From NCBI RefSeq assembly GCF_009711185.1, contig NZ_WMIF01000002.1, forward strand, positions 62,001-126,000: 64,000 bases of DNA, given 5' to 3'. The notes beneath the pieces are model-generated. The model had not been told where the DNA came from, ran no database searches, and saw only the letters and a list, made by a program, of their open reading frames with translations. Each line of letters opens with the position of its first letter. Within the stretch, counting starts at the first letter, position 1. The position numbers and the translations under genes are program-made. This stretch comes from Paracoccus limosus. GTDB lineage: Bacteria; Pseudomonadota; Alphaproteobacteria; Rhodobacterales; Rhodobacteraceae. Below are positions 136-10,269 of the stretch, piece after piece.

Positions 136-714
136 TCATGGCCGATATATCAAGCGGACTCCGCCCTTCAAATCAAGAATCTGCTCGCTCGCATCGGGTG
201 CGACCGGGCGTAATTCCATATTGCCGGCGGTCAGATCGCCAAAGGGGGCGCGCACATCCACCTGCTGGTCGGACCGCACCGTGCCGGCGCTGGTCGAGGC
301 AAGGAATTCGGGCGCGGTCAGCACCCAGCCATCGGCGGTAGTCATGCGCACACCGTCGCCCAGCGTGACCTGATCGCCCTCGACCCGGGCCGAGCCCGCG
401 CTGACATCGGCGGCGCGGCCGTCCTGCGCACGGATCGTCATGCGCACCGCGCTAAGGCTGCCGCTGCCCTTGCCTTTGCCCGGCACCGCCTCGGCCCCCG
501 AGATGGTCAGCTGCGCGCCATTGTCGGTGACGCCGGTATAGGTCGGATTGGTCACCGCCTGCCGCTCGGCCAGATCCTGCGGATCGACATTGGCATAGGG
601 GATGCCCACGTCGGGTTCGGGCTTGCGGCCCAGAAGGAACAGCACCGACAGGATCGCCAGCGCCGTCAGCGGCAACAGCACGCGCAGCCAGGCGACGATC
701 CGCGAGCGCAGCAT
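136..714 (-). CDS. lptC: LptC, LPS export system inner-membrane protein
   Basis: This 192-residue protein has one N-terminal membrane segment (about residues 11-28, after MLRSRIVAWLR) followed by a periplasmic beta-rich domain, the LptC/YrbK layout and length. LptC is the bitopic partner of LptBFG and hands LPS to LptA. The repeated pattern of short strands (for example VRMTIRAQDGRAADVSAGSA and VDVRAPFGDLTAGNMEL) fits the beta-jellyroll fold shared with LptA. It begins 3 bases after the kdsD stop codon and is followed by lptA, so the three are very probably cotranscribed. Confidence 0.9.
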   Translation of the reverse strand: MLRSRIVAWLRVLLPLTALAILSVLFLLGRKPEPDVGIPYANVDPQDLAERQAVTNPTYTGVTDNGAQLTISGAEAVPGKGKGSGSLSAVRMTIRAQDGRAADVSAGSARVEGDQVTLGDGVRMTTADGWVLTAPEFLASTSAGTVRSDQQVDVRAPFGDLTAGNMELRPVAPDASEQILDLKGGVRLIYRP

Positions 715-717
715 GGC

Positions 718-1671
718 CTAGACCATCCCGGTGCGCAGGAAGTCGTGGATATGCAGCAGGCCGACGGGCTTGCGATCCTCAAGCACGAACAGGCTGGTGA
801 TCTTGCGCTCCTGCATCTGGGCCAGCGCCTGCTCGGCCAGTTTCTCGGGCGAGATGGTGCGCGGATCGCGCGTCATCACCTGTGCAGCGCGCAGGTCCAA
901 AAGCCCCTGCATGTGCCGCCGCAAGTCCCCGTCGGTGATGATGCCGGTCAGGTTGCCCTGCGCATCGATGACGCCGGTCACGCCAAAGCCCTTTTGGCTG
1001 ATGACCAGCAGCGCCTCGGACATGGGGGCGGTTTCAGCCACCAGCGGGATGTCGCGATGCATCAGATCGCCCACCCGCGACAGTTTCGCCCCCAGCTTGC
1101 CACCGGGGTGGAAGGTGCGGAAATGTTCGGGCGTGAATTTGCGATGTTCCATCAGCGCGATGGCCAGCGCATCGCCAAGTGCCATGGTCATCGTCGTCGA
1201 GGTGGTGGGCACGATGCCCGAACCACAGGCCTCGGGTGCAGCAGGCAGCAGCAGCGCCACATCCGATTGCCGCAGCAGCGTCGAGTCGGGGCGCGAGGCC
1301 ACGCCGATCAGCGGGATTTCAAAGCGGCGGGTATGGGCGATCAGGTCGGCCAGTTCCGGCGTCTCGCCCGAGTTCGACAGCACCAGCGCCACGTCGTTTT
1401 GCGTCACCATGCCCAGATCGCCATGGCTGGCCTCGCCGGGATGGACGAATTGCGCCGGCGTCCCGGTCGAGGCGAAGGTCGCCGCGATCTTGCGCCCGAC
1501 ATGGCCCGATTTGCCCATGCCCGAGACGATGACCCGGCCCTGCGCGGCCAGGATCAGTCCGACCGCGCGGTCGAAACTGTCGTCAAGGCCGGCGGCCAAT
1601 GCCTCAAGCCCCGAGATTTCGGTGCGGATCACCCGCCGGGCGGTATCCAGATATGCGCTCATGCCGCCCAT
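718..1671 (-). CDS. kdsD: D-arabinose-5-phosphate isomerase (KdsD/KpsF family)
   Basis: This enzyme converts ribulose 5-phosphate to arabinose 5-phosphate, the first step of Kdo synthesis for lipopolysaccharide. The 317 residues comprise an N-terminal SIS sugar-isomerase domain (GMGKSG at 51-56, HPGEASHGD at 77-85, SNSGET at 99-104) and two C-terminal CBS domains from about residue 200. The length is standard. The start at 1671 directly abuts the rnd stop codon TAG. A second ATG three codons later, reading MSAYLD, is equally possible. The link with lptC and lptA explains its role in LPS supply. Confidence 0.93.
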   Translation of the reverse strand: MGGMSAYLDTARRVIRTEISGLEALAAGLDDSFDRAVGLILAAQGRVIVSGMGKSGHVGRKIAATFASTGTPAQFVHPGEASHGDLGMVTQNDVALVLSNSGETPELADLIAHTRRFEIPLIGVASRPDSTLLRQSDVALLLPAAPEACGSGIVPTTSTTMTMALGDALAIALMEHRKFTPEHFRTFHPGGKLGAKLSRVGDLMHRDIPLVAETAPMSEALLVISQKGFGVTGVIDAQGNLTGIITDGDLRRHMQGLLDLRAAQVMTRDPRTISPEKLAEQALAQMQERKITSLFVLEDRKPVGLLHIHDFLRTGMV

Positions 1672-2537: not shown

Positions 2538-4559
2538 ATGAAATTGCACCATATTATTCCTTTGGCGGGCGTTTCGACGCTGGCCCTTGCGACGGCGCTG
2601 GCCGCGCAAGAGGCGGCCCAGCCCGCCGGCACCATCACGCTGGACCCGATCACGCTGGTCGCCAATGGCAAGGAAAACGTCGAAGCGACCGGAGGTGTCG
2701 CCGTCTCGCAAGAGGATATCGAGGCGCTGCAACCTGCCGATGTCTCGGACCTGTTCGCACGCGATTCGGCGATCACCGTGTCGGGGGGCGCCGGGCCGGC
2801 CAAGCGGATCCATGTTTTTGGTCTGGAGCAGTCGAACCTTGCGGTCAGCGTCGATGGCGTGCCGCAAGGCCCAACCAGCTGGCACCACACCGGCTCGAAC
2901 GTGATCGACCCGGCTTTCCTGAAGTCCGTCGAGGTCGAGGCCGGTGCCGCCGCCGCCGATGCCGGTTTCGGCGCGGCCGCCGGTGCGGTGCGCTATGAGA
3001 CCGTGGGCGCCAAGGATCTTTTGACCGATGGTCGCAGCCAGGGCGGGCGCGTCGGCCTGTCCTGGGGCACGAACGGGCGCGGCTGGTCGGGGTCGCTGGC
3101 CGGTTACGGCATCTATGGCGGCTTTGACTGGTTCGCGATGGTGCATGGCACCCATGGCAAGAATTACAAGAACGGCGCCGGCTATGAGATTGCCGGCACC
3201 GAGCCGGGTGCCGCCGGGGCGCTGGTCAAGCTGGGCTATGAGGCCGAGGGCCACCGTCTGGAGCTGGCTTTCGACCACAGTCAGGACGACGGCGACCGCA
3301 CCACCAAGATGAACATGGACCTGAACGCGGACAAGCTGGTCTATCCGCTGAAGGTCACGCGCGACTCGCTGAGCCTGAAATACAGCTCGACCGCGCCGAC
3401 CGATGCCTGGGATCCGGCGGCCAAGCTTTATATCACCGAGAACAAATATGACCGCCCGAACTATGTCCCCGATGGCACCAACGGCGATATGAAGCTGAAG
3501 AACCGCACCATCGGCGGTGAGTTCAAAAACACCTATACGCTGGGCGCGGGCAAGATCACCTCGGGCATCGACTGGGCCTATAACGATTACGATGTCGACA
3601 ACTACGGCGACACCGATCACCGTTACTGGACCATGGAGACGATGCAGATCGGCGCCTATGTGCAGGGCCGGTTCGAATTCGACAATGGCATCGACCTGTC
3701 GACCGGCGCCCGCGTCGACAATTATCGCTTCACCGATTTCAACGGCGGCCGCCATTCCGACACCGGCGCCAGCGTCAACGGCACCCTGTCCTATGAATTC
3801 GCCCAAGGCTATGAGGTGTTTGCCGGTGCCTCGCACACCTGGCTGGGCTATCGCTTTGGCGAATATGCGCTGCTGCATGCGCGCGGCTCGAACCTCTATG
3901 TCGCGGATGAATACAAGGCGTCCAGCGCGCGCAACATCAAGCTGGGTCTGAACGCCAATCAGGACAACTGGACCGGCAACCTGACCTTCTTTGACACCCG
4001 CCTGAAGAACATGGGCGAGTTCATCTTCCCCGAGGTGGAAACCGAAGCGCCCTATCTGGGCAATGTCGATGAATACCGCAGCAGGGGCTTTACGCTGCAA
4101 GGCACCTACAGCTGGGGTTCGGGTCGCGTCGGCGGCAGCTTTACCAAGGCCAATGTCAGTCAGGGTGGCATCGACGTGCTGCCGGGCGGCGGTGCGGCGG
4201 TCCCGGTCGGCAAGGTCGCGACGCTGTTCGTCGATCAGGAGCTTGCGCAGTATAACGCCAAGGTCGGCGCCTCGCTGGAATGGGCCGACAAGCTGAAGGG
4301 CAACTACAATACGACCGACGGCGGCTTTTACGATGAAAGCTCTTATACGGTCGTGAACCTTTACGGCGAATGGCGGCCCGAGAGCTATCAGAACGTCGTC
4401 CTGCGCCTTGGCGTGGATAACGTCTTTGACCGCACCTATTACGAACGGTCGAGCTATGGCGAACGCGACGTGATCCGCGGCGGCGCGCTGGCGCGCGACA
4501 TCAACCCGCTTTACGCGCCGGGCCGCACCGTCACGCTGGGCCTGAAGCTGGATTTCTGA
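2538..4559 (+). CDS. TonB-dependent outer-membrane receptor
   Basis: A 673-residue outer-membrane receptor with a signal peptide (cleavage near LAAQ, residue 23), a TonB-box-like LDPITLVA shortly after it, a plug domain (about 45-150, including VDGVPQGP and VEVEAGAAAADAGFGAAAGA) and a 22-strand-type barrel ending in LGLKLDF with a terminal phenylalanine. These proteins import scarce ligands such as ferric siderophores, haem or other metal complexes using TonB energy. I do not see the FRAP/NPNL signature of haem receptors, so the substrate is open. It is monocistronic: its own promoter precedes it and a strong terminator follows. Confidence 0.85.
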   Translation: MKLHHIIPLAGVSTLALATALAAQEAAQPAGTITLDPITLVANGKENVEATGGVAVSQEDIEALQPADVSDLFARDSAITVSGGAGPAKRIHVFGLEQSNLAVSVDGVPQGPTSWHHTGSNVIDPAFLKSVEVEAGAAAADAGFGAAAGAVRYETVGAKDLLTDGRSQGGRVGLSWGTNGRGWSGSLAGYGIYGGFDWFAMVHGTHGKNYKNGAGYEIAGTEPGAAGALVKLGYEAEGHRLELAFDHSQDDGDRTTKMNMDLNADKLVYPLKVTRDSLSLKYSSTAPTDAWDPAAKLYITENKYDRPNYVPDGTNGDMKLKNRTIGGEFKNTYTLGAGKITSGIDWAYNDYDVDNYGDTDHRYWTMETMQIGAYVQGRFEFDNGIDLSTGARVDNYRFTDFNGGRHSDTGASVNGTLSYEFAQGYEVFAGASHTWLGYRFGEYALLHARGSNLYVADEYKASSARNIKLGLNANQDNWTGNLTFFDTRLKNMGEFIFPEVETEAPYLGNVDEYRSRGFTLQGTYSWGSGRVGGSFTKANVSQGGIDVLPGGGAAVPVGKVATLFVDQELAQYNAKVGASLEWADKLKGNYNTTDGGFYDESSYTVVNLYGEWRPESYQNVVLRLGVDNVFDRTYYERSSYGERDVIRGGALARDINPLYAPGRTVTLGLKLDF

Positions 4560-6667: not shown

Positions 6668-7393
6668 CTAGGCCTGCGGACGGTCACCCGTGTGCAGCGC
6701 CCGGATCTCGGATGCGACCAGTTTCTGCAACCGCCACAGGTTGCGGTCCTGAATGCCGAATTGTTCCAGATGGCTGACGGTGTTGAACAGGTATTCGGCG
6801 CAAGAGCCGATCGGCCCGCAGGCCCGCGCCAGCAATTGCGCCACCTGTTCCAGCGGCAGCCGGCTAAGGATGCGCGGCCCGGTCGGTCCGGCCCAGAACA
6901 CCAGCACGCGCCGGCTGCCCTGTTCGGTGCGGACCGGGATCCAGCGCACCATGTCGCGGTTCTGGTGAAAGCGGATCTCGCGGCGCAGCATCCGTCGCAA
7001 CTGGTCCCGGCGGTCATGGTCGGGGATGCGATAGATCACGCCGTCGCAGCGCCCGCCGCGCTCCAGCGCCATCATCAGCCCCATGTGCTGCGGCGAGCCG
7101 CGCCAGCGGTGCATCTTCAGGCAGAACGAGCGGTGCCAGCCCCAGGCCGAGGCGCGGCGATGCTCGATGGCGTCGAAATCCGGTTTCCAGATCAGCGAGC
7201 CATAGGCAAAGACCCACAGCGGATCCGGGCCGCAATCCTCGTCCAGCGCCTGCGCCATGGCATCAAGTTCACTCTCGCCCATTTCGGTCCAGCCGGGTTC
7301 GGGGCCAAGGTCGGGCTCGGGCCGCAGGGTCAGCGCGACCAGTTCGGGGGTCAGGGTCATCTGCCGCGGCGGGCGGCGGGGCGGGGCATTCAT
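6668..7393 (-). CDS. chaC: ChaC-family gamma-glutamylcyclotransferase
   Basis: ChaC enzymes cleave glutathione to 5-oxoproline and Cys-Gly in the cytosol. The 241-residue protein has the diagnostic substrate-binding loop VFAYGSLIW (YGSL at 64-67) and a probable catalytic Glu139 in LRREIRFHQ. The first 55 residues are a Pro/Glu-rich lead without domain character. It converges on the dioxygenase gene, with a shared terminator, and its promoter must lie in the 206-base divergent gap before the next plus-strand gene. Confidence 0.9.
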   Translation of the reverse strand: MNAPPRRPPRQMTLTPELVALTLRPEPDLGPEPGWTEMGESELDAMAQALDEDCGPDPLWVFAYGSLIWKPDFDAIEHRRASAWGWHRSFCLKMHRWRGSPQHMGLMMALERGGRCDGVIYRIPDHDRRDQLRRMLRREIRFHQNRDMVRWIPVRTEQGSRRVLVFWAGPTGPRILSRLPLEQVAQLLARACGPIGSCAEYLFNTVSHLEQFGIQDRNLWRLQKLVASEIRALHTGDRPQA

Positions 7394-7599
7394 GGCGCTC
7401 TTTCGTCAGTCCATGCCGGGCCGGCGTCAGGGGCGCGCCGCCCGATATCGGGCCAAGGTGGCGCGATCCTGCCATAGCTGCAACCCCCGAAGCCGGGAAT
7501 TCGCTGCCGGTTGCGGTTCTGCGGGATCGTGAGGCCGGCGGCCTTGCGTAGCGCCCCGCCGCTGGGCAGGCTGGCGCGGAACCGACACAAGGACCACCC

Positions 7600-9237
7600 A
7601 TGCCCAGCCTTGCCGATGCCCTGCCGGGCACCCTGTCCAACCCGCCGCTGGCGGTGGGCCTGAACGGGTTGCATGACTGGAGCACGGCGCAGCCTTTCCT
7701 TGACCATTTCAAGATGGCGCGGCCCTGGTCGGGCACGATCAGCGGCCAGTTCGGCGCGCGGTCCTTTGAGGCGCTGCAGCAGGCGGGGGCCGTGGACGCG
7801 CAGGGCTGGCTGGTCGCCGTGCCCCCCGGCGTGGACTGGGTCAGCACGGTCTTGCTGACCGGGCTGTATCCGGGCGCACGGGATCTGGCCGACCGCTATC
7901 AGATGACCTGGACCGGCACGGCCGAGCTGGAGCTGCTGGGCGGGCGCAACCTGCTGCGCGACGGCAACCGGATCGAATTCGATTACGACCCGGCGCTGGA
8001 CAGGATGATCGAGCTGCGGATCCACGCGCTGACCAGCCCCCTGCGCGACATCCGCGTGGTGCAGCTCGACAATGCGGCGCGGTTGCGGGCGGGCGGGATC
8101 TTTCGCTGCGAATGGCTGGATGCGATCCGCAATTACCGGCTGCTGCGCTTCATGGACTGGATGGCGACCAATGGCTCGGCGCAACGCGGCTGGCAGGGCC
8201 GGCCACGGGTCGATGATGCCTTTTACACATGGCGCGGCGCTCCGGTCGAGGTGATGCTGGCGCTGGTGGCCGAGGTCGGCGCCGATCCGTGGTTCTGCAT
8301 CCCGCACCGGGCCGATGCCGGCTGGATCGAGGGCTTCGCCCGGCAGATCAGCACCAGCCTGCGTCCCGGCCTGACGGCATGGTATGAATATTCGAACGAG
8401 GTCTGGAATTTCGGCTTTGAACAGGCGCGATGGGCCGTCGAGCAGGCGCGGGGGCGCTGGCCCTCGGCCGGGGACGGGTTCATGCAGCTCTATGCCGCCC
8501 GCGCCGTCGAGATGGCGGCGATTCTGGATCGGGTGCATGCCGGTTCGGGCGTCGGTCATGTCAAGGTGATCTCGACCCAAACGCATTGGCTGGGTCTGGA
8601 AGAGGCAGTGCTGAACGCCCCCGAATGGCAGGCCGAAAATCCGCTGCAACCGCCGCCCTATCGCCATTTCGATGCCTATGCCGTCTCGGGCTATTTCGAG
8701 GGCGGGCTGAGCGCGGATGAGAATGTGGCGCGGGTCCGGGCGCTGCTGGCGCAGGGCGGCGAGGCGCAGGCCCGCACCGCGCTGCGCGACCAGCTGCTGA
8801 GCGGCGGCTGGCCCAACAGCGGCCGCACCATCGCCAATCTGCGCGAGACATGGGACCATCACGCCCGCGTCGCCGGTAAACATGGCTTGCGGCTGGTCAT
8901 GTATGAGGGCGGGCCGCATATCGTGCTGCCGGATGAGGTGGCCGAGGATGCTGCGCTGGCCGCGTTTTACGAACGTTTCGCCTATTCCGCCGAGATCGCG
9001 CAGGTGCAGGCGGCGGCGCTGGACGAATGGCGTGCGGCCGGTGGCGAGCAGTTCAACCTCTTTGTCGAATGTGCCGGACCCAGCCGCTATGGCTATTGGG
9101 GATTGCAGCGCCATCTGGGCGATGAAAACCCGCGCTGGGCCGCCGTCGAGGCCTGGAATGCTAGCCACGACGGCCCCGAGGGGCGCGACGGCGCCTTCAT
9201 CGGGCCGGCGGACCTGACCCGATGCGCGCCGGGCTGA
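7600..9237 (+). CDS. Glycoside-hydrolase-like protein (clan GH-A-type motifs), function unknown
   Basis: A 545-residue protein that I cannot assign to a named family. Early sequence LAVGLNGLHDWSTAQPFLDHFK and later motifs resemble TIM-barrel glycosidases of clan GH-A: E267 in WYEYSNEVWNF would be the acid/base and E436 in LVMYEGGPHI the nucleophile, 169 residues apart. There is no signal peptide, and a stop codon upstream in frame (7549-7551) excludes a longer exported form from the usual start codons, so it appears cytoplasmic. The 3' end lies 3 bases from that of hemH with no terminator between. The sugar substrate and the reaction are unknown. Confidence 0.6.
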   Translation: MPSLADALPGTLSNPPLAVGLNGLHDWSTAQPFLDHFKMARPWSGTISGQFGARSFEALQQAGAVDAQGWLVAVPPGVDWVSTVLLTGLYPGARDLADRYQMTWTGTAELELLGGRNLLRDGNRIEFDYDPALDRMIELRIHALTSPLRDIRVVQLDNAARLRAGGIFRCEWLDAIRNYRLLRFMDWMATNGSAQRGWQGRPRVDDAFYTWRGAPVEVMLALVAEVGADPWFCIPHRADAGWIEGFARQISTSLRPGLTAWYEYSNEVWNFGFEQARWAVEQARGRWPSAGDGFMQLYAARAVEMAAILDRVHAGSGVGHVKVISTQTHWLGLEEAVLNAPEWQAENPLQPPPYRHFDAYAVSGYFEGGLSADENVARVRALLAQGGEAQARTALRDQLLSGGWPNSGRTIANLRETWDHHARVAGKHGLRLVMYEGGPHIVLPDEVAEDAALAAFYERFAYSAEIAQVQAAALDEWRAAGGEQFNLFVECAGPSRYGYWGLQRHLGDENPRWAAVEAWNASHDGPEGRDGAFIGPADLTRCAPG

Positions 9238-9240
9238 GCG

Positions 9241-10269
9241 TCAGATCCAGCCGCCCAGATTCTCGGTGATGATCGTGGTCAGCACGTCGATATGGTCGGG
9301 ATCGGCGTTCAGGCAGGGGATATAGGTAAATTCCTTGCCGCCGGCATGCCCAAACGCCTCGCGGATCTCGCCCTGGATTTCCTCGAGCGTTTCGATGCAG
9401 TCCGACGAGAATGCCGGCGAGATCACCGCGATCTCGGTGATGCCCTGCCTTGCCAGCTCGGCGACATGCTCGACCGTATAGGGCTTCAGCCATTCCTCGC
9501 GGCCAAAGACCGACTGGAAGCTGGTGTCGATCACGCCCTCGGGCCAGCCAAGCGCTTCGCGCAGCAGGCGCGAGGTCTTCTGGCACTGGCAATGATAGGG
9601 GTCGCCCTGCATCAGATAGCGTTTCGGCATGCCGTGATAGCTGGCGACCAGCTTGCGCGGCACCCGGCCGTTCAGCGCGCGGGTGACCGAGCCCGCCAGC
9701 GCGGCGATATAGTCGGGCCGGTCGAAATAGGGCGCGACGGTGCGCGCCGCCGGCTGCCAGACCTGTTTCATCAGTGCGCGGAAGAACTGGTCATTGGCCG
9801 TGGCCGAGGTCGCGCCGGCATATTGCGGGTAAAGCGGCAGGAACAGGATGCGGTCGCAGCCGGCCTTGACCATGCGATCCACCACCGCCTCGGTCGAGGG
9901 ATTGCCGTAGCGCATGCAGAACTCGACCATCACTCGATCGCCCCAGAGGCCCGCGGCGCGGTCGCGCAGCGCCGCCACCTGCTCTTTGGTGATGGTCATC
10001 AGCGGGCTTTCATTCGCCTCGGTGTTCCAGATGGTCTTGTAATTCGCCCCCGAGGTGAAGGGCCGCTTGGTCAGGATGATGCCCTGCAGGATCGGCTGCC
10101 ATTTCCAGCTTGGCAGGTCGATCACCCGCTTGTCCGAGAGGAACTCGTTCAGATAGCGGCGCATCGACCAGTAGTCGGTGCCATCGGGCGTGCCCAGATT
10201 GGCGATCAGCACGCCGATGCGGCGCGGCGGGATGGCCGGATGCGCGGAGGGCAGGGTGTCTTGCGTCAT
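9241..10269 (-). CDS. hemH: Ferrochelatase
   Basis: Ferrochelatase inserts ferrous iron into protoporphyrin IX, the last step of haem synthesis. The 342-residue length is normal. The start region IGVLIANLGTPDG, the catalytic His212 in SYHGMPKRY and Glu293 in SDCIETLEEI are all present. Cysteines 227, 229 and 291 might bind a cluster, as proposed for some bacterial ferrochelatases, but this is speculative. The start codon overlaps the stop of the upstream methyltransferase-like gene (ATGA), so the two are translationally coupled. Confidence 0.95.
   Translation of the reverse strand: MTQDTLPSAHPAIPPRRIGVLIANLGTPDGTDYWSMRRYLNEFLSDKRVIDLPSWKWQPILQGIILTKRPFTSGANYKTIWNTEANESPLMTITKEQVAALRDRAAGLWGDRVMVEFCMRYGNPSTEAVVDRMVKAGCDRILFLPLYPQYAGATSATANDQFFRALMKQVWQPAARTVAPYFDRPDYIAALAGSVTRALNGRVPRKLVASYHGMPKRYLMQGDPYHCQCQKTSRLLREALGWPEGVIDTSFQSVFGREEWLKPYTVEHVAELARQGITEIAVISPAFSSDCIETLEEIQGEIREAFGHAGGKEFTYIPCLNADPDHIDVLTTIITENLGGWI

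Follow-up and report, generated by a model that had tools for sequence, protein, structure and literature searches.

A predicted leaderless GH-A-type glycosidase of Paracoccus limosus and its family in Rhodobacterales exopolysaccharide operons

We describe a gene of Paracoccus limosus that encodes a predicted glycosidase from a family that is mostly tied to exopolysaccharide operons and is also present on viral contigs. The gene lies in a 64,000-nt stretch of contig NZ_WMIF01000002.1 (hereafter the window, whose own positions are used below). Our preferred reading, to which we give a probability of about 0.5, is that the protein is an intracellular retaining GH-A-type glycosidase acting on exopolysaccharide-type oligosaccharides. 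The fold and the catalytic residues are well supported, as far as a structural model and conservation reach, and it is fold and conservation, not motif spacing, that carry the case for a GH-A glycosidase. In the proposed mechanism, E267 would serve as the acid/base at the C-terminal end of barrel strand 4, and E436 as the nucleophile at that of strand 7. The enzyme most likely stays in the cytoplasm, because a signal peptide is absent, and kinship and co-occurrence suggest that its substrate would be a linkage in an exopolysaccharide repeat unit or in the breakdown oligosaccharides of that unit. The gene and its product have the following features.

7600..9237, plus strand: coding sequence of 545 aa with an ATG start (open reading frame); predicted leaderless GH-A-like glycosidase of a family without a Pfam or NCBIfam name
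7589..7593, plus strand: AAGGA, Shine-Dalgarno-like, 6 nt 5′ of the ATG (sequence reading)
7648..7659, plus strand: barrel strand 1, residues 17-20 (DSSP on the model)
7729..8064, plus strand: beta domain of nine strands (residues 44-155) that separates barrel strand 1 from strand 2 (DSSP on the model)
8386..8409, plus strand: EYSNEVWN at the end of barrel strand 4, with the E267 codon at 8398-8400, putative acid/base (model, conservation, translation)
8899..8913, plus strand: MYEGG in barrel strand 7, with the E436 codon at 8905-8907, putative nucleophile (model, conservation, translation)

The reading frame has no internal stop codon, and its GC3 (0.832) compares with 0.804-0.863 in nine neighbouring genes. 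A promoter and terminator scan of the gene found nothing, but such scans mean little in this organism. A sequence-only reading had placed E267 within YSNEVWN and E436 within MYEGG, and translation confirms both motifs and the residue numbering. The same reading took the spacing of the two motifs to be that of a GH-A acid/base and nucleophile. The full family motif pair arose in 0 of 2000 shuffles of the window protein, but a loose pair ('NE ... [YFWM]E[GAS]' at the given spacing) arose in 218 of 2000; motif spacing alone is therefore weak evidence. The claim that the protein lacks a signal peptide holds: the frame extends only 16 codons 5′ of the ATG, without a hydrophobic stretch. A hidden upstream leader or frameshift was considered and rejected on the same short open frame and on the upstream DNA of the orthologues, which has no shared leader.

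Searches with the window protein agree with the statement that it matches no known family: there was no Pfam or NCBIfam match at E ≤ 10, no PHROG match at E ≤ 0.01, no match among the INPHARED phages and no related entry in a PDB sequence search. We also searched the PDB with the profile of a 42-row family alignment, which holds the window protein and 41 of 80 genome loci chosen for spread (those omitted include L033 and L064, with frame problems, and L065 and L079, with truncated ORFs); it returned four matches, all unrelated (best E 0.22). Judged by sequence, neither Pfam nor NCBIfam, the two libraries searched, has a name for the family. We found no description of it in the literature within titles and abstract openings, a coverage that leaves out subscription papers.

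We now consider the fold. An AlphaFold2 model of the window protein, built from 42 aligned sequences (pLDDT 92.4, pTM 0.92), is a predicted eight-strand barrel with strands at residues 17-20, 181-183, 229-234, 259-264, 319-325, 359-366, 431-439 and 483-487 (DSSP), so that, on the model, a fold other than a TIM barrel is excluded. Strand 4 (259-264) is followed by S265, N266 and E267, which places E267 three residues past the strand end, and E436 lies inside strand 7 (431-439); the model thereby bears out the predicted clan GH-A placement of the two glutamates. Their strand positions suggest that they would face each other; in retaining glycosidases the catalytic carboxylates are 4.5-6.5 Å apart. 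Around them, the model places R183 on strand 2, H236 after strand 3, N266-E267 at strand 4, Y365 on strand 6, E436 on strand 7 and W500 just before residues 501-503, which we take to be the set expected of GH-A active sites.

Comparison of the model with known structures by VIA-align, which covers only the families present in the VIA list, aligned 982 of 998 chains at Z ≥ 8, and the top rows came from GH51, GH79, GH39, GH5 and GH164. The best structural match is with the GH51 alpha-L-arabinofuranosidases 1pz3 and 2c7f (for 1pz3, Z 23.0, 300 residues aligned at 3.3 Å), followed by 5bwi (Z 22.3, 289 residues, 3.1 Å), a bacterial heparanase that we take to be a GH79 member, and GH39 2bfg (Z 20.5, 276 residues, 3.7 Å). 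Glycosidases also rank first in Foldseek, where the TM-scores of the top ten rows are low (0.32-0.37 of the query), and a BFVD fold comparison ranks GH5-type phage proteins first, with no close relative among them.

Likeness of fold does not extend to family membership. We rejected GH51, GH79 and GH5 on sequence, since no Pfam match was found at E ≤ 10, and GH39 likewise; all four are kept as fold kin. GH51 enzymes carry a C-terminal beta-sandwich after the barrel and have their catalytic glutamates on strands 4 and 7, whereas the window model has no such sandwich (DSSP finds no strand past residue 503), bears a beta domain between strands 1 and 2, and is only 10-13% identical to the GH51 rows. 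The GH51 Pfam model has no match among 96 class relatives. The GH79 heparanase is alike in fold, but its identity is 12% and no sequence model matches; Pfam does hold a GH79 model. Against GH39, the family to which the hydrolase PslG presumably belongs, hhalign gave the window family a probability of 0.9%, a weak test with only three GH39 rows; those three rows do retrieve GH39 PDB entries, whereas the 42-row profile retrieves none. A GH5 PROSITE-type signature is present only in part. A predicted glycosidase family that recurs in Rhodobacterales exopolysaccharide operons goes unrecognised: none of the 42 family members matches a glycoside hydrolase model (Pfam at E ≤ 1, NCBIfam at E ≤ 0.1).

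The proposal of a new glycosidase family stands in that the GH-A barrel has no Pfam or NCBIfam model, but the protein is not a lone oddity, and the suggested homologue search uncovered a sizeable family. A pattern scan of genome contigs found 127 relatives, of which the best 80 were analysed. The scan used six peptide patterns, none containing R183, H236, N266, E267, Y365, E436 or W500, and these seven residues are invariant in all 80 aligned ORFs from the best 80 of 127 relatives, both glutamates included. Among the 29 ORFs at fetched loci from the genus (best matches only, at most 30, and some identical to genome-scan loci), E267 is kept in 27, all but L164 and L165, and E436 in all 29. At viral loci, E267 and E436 are kept wherever aligned (56/56 and 45/45), a result that is partly circular because that scan used the patterns E[YF]SNEVW and YEGG.

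The neighbours of the relatives point towards polysaccharide synthesis. We examined 84 loci, comprising the 80 genome loci (best 80 of 127 relatives) and four around orthologues of the window gene; one place is counted twice, because L141 and L171 coincide with L001. Within the fetched flanks, mostly at most 6 kb, 71 of the 84 loci carry at least one exopolysaccharide marker, with context families read from one representative per cluster and with CbiA, just under its cut-off, as the sole match of marker cluster 5. GT2 genes occur at 67 loci; there are 68 of them, every one shares the strand of the family gene, and the median gap is -15 bp. Of the loci, 48 have a family 4 glycosyltransferase, 43 a PF13440 flippase and 33 a PF02706 chain-length protein, while a Wzy-like protein (PF04932, below its own cut-off) is found in 8 and a sugar transferase (PF02397, cluster 8), which is excluded from the marker count, in 10. 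The 13 marker-free loci are L001, L002, L015, L018, L065, L073, L076, L077, L080 and L168-L171, and in four of these (L015, L018, L065 and L073) one flank or both are short.

Six annotated plasmid copies span the same range of contexts. The Shinella copy is accompanied by O-antigen ligase and polysaccharide export genes, the Paracoccus marcusii copy by glycosyltransferases and a lipopolysaccharide gene, and the Roseobacter and Sulfitobacter copies have some exopolysaccharide-type genes in their vicinity. The Paracoccus liaowanqingii copy has no such genes around it, and for the copy of strain Arc7-R13 the sole such gene is a family 25 glycosyltransferase at a distance of about 5 kb. In databases, plasmid copies are annotated, among other things, as hypothetical protein, calcium-binding protein or ABC transporter substrate-binding protein.

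Two further genes recur among the 84 loci. An NRPS-like protein with AMP-binding, luciferase-like monooxygenase and carrier domains (L005 73-3498) is encoded near the exopolysaccharide locus in 30 of them, and a phosphopantetheinyl transferase (L042 3486-4175) in 28; an amino-acid-modified polysaccharide is conceivable. Separately, the locus L053 (CP059262.1) is titled Exiguobacterium profundum, a Bacillota name, and its layout is typical of Rhodobacterales; the record is probably mislabelled or mixed.

Many relatives carry a second predicted enzyme. Leaderless fusions of an SGNH esterase to the GH-A barrel occur in 46 of the 80 loci (best 80 of 127 relatives), as called by a crude hydropathy rule and not by SignalP. 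In 45 of the 81 family ORFs from L001-L080, the SGNH domain precedes the barrel and a Met stands exactly 11 residues before the VGHSL block; this Met is encoded by GTG in L014 and L017. In one more fusion, L062, the Met stands 10 residues before the block. With a start only 11 residues before VGHSL, a signal peptide would not fit. By eye, a leader is present in six fusions (L006, L007, L008, L012, L054 and L067), and the script called L012, L054 and L148 leaderless, the first two having leaders by eye. Among clear stand-alone members of L001-L080, the hydropathy rule assigns a leader-like N-terminus to 18 of 19, the exception being L001, an orthologue of the window gene; L011, L024, L025, L037, L046, L055, L064, L065 and L079 were left out of this count as truncated or unclear. 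Exported relatives and relatives with Ca-binding repeats also exist. In one ORF, L069 5878-7974, the N-terminal sequence MSFSLVSLLFIGHSLLGAALAAVE resembles a first SGNH strand that became a leader once the rest of the SGNH domain had been lost.

A model of the SGNH domain (L010 residues 1-275, pLDDT 90.3) resembles the DUF4886 protein 4i8i (Z 21.3) and the putative SGNH hydrolase 4s1p (Z 17.8). Across 24 rows, drawn from the 46 leaderless fusions, S16 and H200 are invariant and D197 is nearly so; PF13472 matches 8 of these rows at E ≤ 1 (best 4.7e-4), with L010 itself below the cut-off. By its predicted fold, its serine in block I and its Asp-x-x-His in block V, the fused domain appears to be of SGNH type.

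The window gene itself is not a member of an exopolysaccharide operon. Its surroundings in the window, as identified by Pfam, contain the following genes.

6668..7393, minus strand: chaC (PF04752), divergent neighbour, which also adjoins the orthologue in genomes G120 and G121
9241..10269, minus strand: hemH (ferrochelatase, PF00762), convergent, 3 bp downstream
2538-4559: TonB-dependent receptor gene, 3 kb upstream of the glycosidase gene
136-714, minus strand: LptC-like gene, 6-7 kb upstream
718-1671, minus strand: SIS-CBS isomerase gene, 6-7 kb upstream, presumably of arabinose-5-phosphate isomerase type

The gene had been said to stand without transporter or sugar-catabolic genes. A Pfam scan of the 16 neighbouring ORFs found no sugar-catabolic gene, in keeping with the second part. 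The first part is true of the immediate neighbours, chaC and hemH, but a TonB-dependent receptor gene lies 3 kb upstream, with LysR, glyoxalase and chaC genes in between. The same scan revealed neither phage nor secretion genes in these ORFs, and the window contains no tRNA gene. The wider neighbourhood includes two lipopolysaccharide genes, the LptC-like and SIS-CBS ones.

Within the genus, 29 of 125 genomes have a match, and only 5 of 125, the window genome included, have one above 60% identity. The other four members of this window clade are 61-65% identical to the window protein, and 25 checked family positions, the catalytic ones included, are identical in all five. By the hydropathy rule, four of the five show no leader. 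The fifth, L142, has a longer open frame, in which the rule flags a hydrophobic segment about 50-70 residues ahead of the barrel and upstream of the presumed Met, and we tentatively read this segment as non-coding; in L139 and L140 the frame extends upstream without a strong hydrophobic stretch. In G040 and G070 the orthologue lies elsewhere, adjoining a Hint-domain gene with comEC nearby, and no neighbour common to all five genomes was seen.

The SGNH esterase that is fused to the barrel in many relatives would here be encoded separately, in an exopolysaccharide locus on contig C56 of the window genome (G000). We list this gene together with a distant prophage copy of the barrel from the same genome.

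G000 contig C56, L192 9751-10596: SGNH-only gene in an exopolysaccharide locus, leaderless, ending where the fusions continue towards the barrel
G000:C1:69390-71054, L082 1504-3165: prophage copy, a distant barrel copy in a 1111-aa open frame

Around the SGNH-only gene, a search identified a flippase (49% identity) and an NRPS-like gene (59%), and glycosyltransferase, sugar-transferase and Wzz-like genes were recognised by eye. An SGNH gene like this one (E < 1e-78) occurs in 20 of 125 genomes, all five of the window clade included, a co-occurrence with a hypergeometric probability of 6.6e-5 under a cut-off set after seeing the table and with genome kinship ignored; with any SGNH match (62 of 125 genomes) the value is 0.028, kinship again ignored. 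The pair is not obligatory, because 13 of these 20 genomes lack a family member altogether. In G070 the SGNH start is of the same kind as in G000, and the starts in G120 and G121 are unsure because no Met stands close before the SGNH block.

We next placed the window gene in a 35-row tree. It recovers the window clade with support 100/97, in a 100/100 set of 16 rows that contains prophage copies, viral-contig copies and exported Paracoccus members. Within this set the clade joins the prophage copies at 94/83, a node that is not starred, and the AU test does not reject an alternative in which it groups with exported and viral members (p-AU 0.22). A 95-row tree omitted rows below 70% coverage, duplicates and 47 of the 80 genome loci. 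The idea that the window gene was split from a local SGNH-GH fusion is weakened, because the trees group it with phage and exported Paracoccus members.

The prophage copies differ from the window clade at the catalytic positions. Terminase, portal, scaffold and major head genes lie ahead of the L082 copy, and a head-closure gene comes after it; the copy has Lys at position 267 (E267K) and other residues at 365 and 500, with E436 kept, and is likely a catalytically dead phage protein, a pseudoenzyme. It matches PF13364 weakly, under the cut-off (E 0.025). L164 and L165, from G046 and G047, carry N266T, E267K, Y365Q and W500H with about 500 extra residues after the barrel, and by these substitutions they too would be catalytically dead. 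The distance between the L165/L174 copy and a phage tape-measure gene is about 6 kb, and further family copies are present, two in G047 and one in G046.

How, then, is the window enzyme to be explained? Several points stand against the exopolysaccharide reading: the gene lies outside an exopolysaccharide locus, the pairing with the SGNH gene is not obligatory, the leader calls depend on a crude rule that flags L142, the Foldseek TM-scores are low, and the tree places the clade with phage-borne and exported Paracoccus members and away from the SGNH fusions. A position outside such a locus would also suit an intracellular catabolic enzyme that cleaves oligosaccharides taken up by the cell and unrelated to the exopolysaccharide it makes; the protein is leaderless, its gene is alone on its strand, the catalytic residues are intact, and a TonB-dependent receptor gene lies 3 kb upstream. 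We nevertheless think this improbable, considering that none of the 16 neighbouring ORFs scanned is sugar-catabolic and that the relatives mostly sit beside glycosyltransferases and flippases. The tree also brings in a domesticated phage virion enzyme, now an orphan, which would act outside after lysis or not at all, and which would be leaderless because phage proteins leave by lysis. The clade joins prophage copies (94/83) in a 100/100 set together with two jumbo-phage-like copies, and its distribution is patchy, with 5 of 125 genomes and at least two chromosomal contexts. On the other hand, there is no phage gene in the 16 neighbouring ORFs and no tRNA in the window, the protein lacks an additional domain that could attach it to a virion, the prophage copies examined (L082, L164 and L165) lost the E267 that the window clade kept, the competing grouping with exported and viral members survives (p-AU 0.22), and long branches meet in the tree. 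This origin likewise has a low probability in our estimate.

The near-universal leader-like N-terminus of the stand-alone relatives raises the further prospect that the gene is a decaying orphan, derived from an exported relative by loss of the leader and now without a role; its rarity, and the lack of a neighbour seen in common among the five genomes, fit that account. Decay is hard to reconcile with 25 positions identical in five members that are otherwise 61-65% identical, a GC3 of 0.832 like that of the neighbours and a frame without internal stops, and we regard it as quite unlikely. Least probable, in our judgement, is non-classical export of an enzyme acting on the cell's own extracellular polysaccharide. 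Exported relatives and relatives with Ca-binding repeats provide a precedent, but the window protein has no long C-terminal extension, no RTX repeat (because it has no Pfam match of any kind) and no secretion gene among the neighbours scanned.

An intracellular glycosidase acting on exopolysaccharide-type oligosaccharides remains our preferred reading, and it can be extended, as a doubtful and speculative proposal, to the Rhodobacterales as a whole. A leaderless cytoplasmic pair of SGNH esterase and GH-A enzyme, encoded as one protein by many exopolysaccharide operons but as two in the window lineage, might edit or clear repeat units at the inner membrane face before flippase export, a form of proofreading; the same fold would have been taken into phages, where some copies may be dead binders.

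Known hydrolases of exopolysaccharide pathways provide partial parallels. PslG is encoded within the psl operon of Pseudomonas aeruginosa, has catalytic residues E165 and E276, and is called intracellular (PMC9075953); as a hydrolase of an exopolysaccharide operon, it appears to be the closest functional parallel to the window enzyme. Another report gives its first 30 residues as a predicted signal peptide and its location as mainly at the inner membrane (PMC6813494), whereas the window protein has no such signal. PgaB combines a deacetylase and a glycoside hydrolase in one protein, seemingly by the same logic as the SGNH-GH-A fusions, but it is reported to be periplasmic (PMC5933820); the fusions and the window protein are leaderless. 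PrmQ is a GH16 hydrolase encoded with a Sphingomonas exopolysaccharide pathway and has a predicted export signal (PMC11340318); it is an exopolysaccharide-locus hydrolase of an alphaproteobacterium, but of another GH family and exported by prediction. A leaderless exopolysaccharide hydrolase would be unusual by these accounts, because PrmQ, like PslG, has an export signal. The role of an intracellular hydrolase in an exopolysaccharide operon is called elusive in the PslG report (PMC9075953). If the SGNH-GH pair works inside the cell, the purpose of such an enzyme becomes testable. The family enzymes could also serve as biofilm-dissolving tools.

Additional copies are present on viral contigs. 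L084 and L085 are two family copies on a 284,776-bp jumbo-phage-like viral contig; one of them is part of a 2225-aa frame, with a collagen-like tail-fibre gene upstream. The 995-aa frame of L086 comes from a viral contig of 20.9 kb. It appears identical to L147 in genome G085 when length and a stretch of sequence are compared; either this is a prophage or the contig was wrongly called viral.
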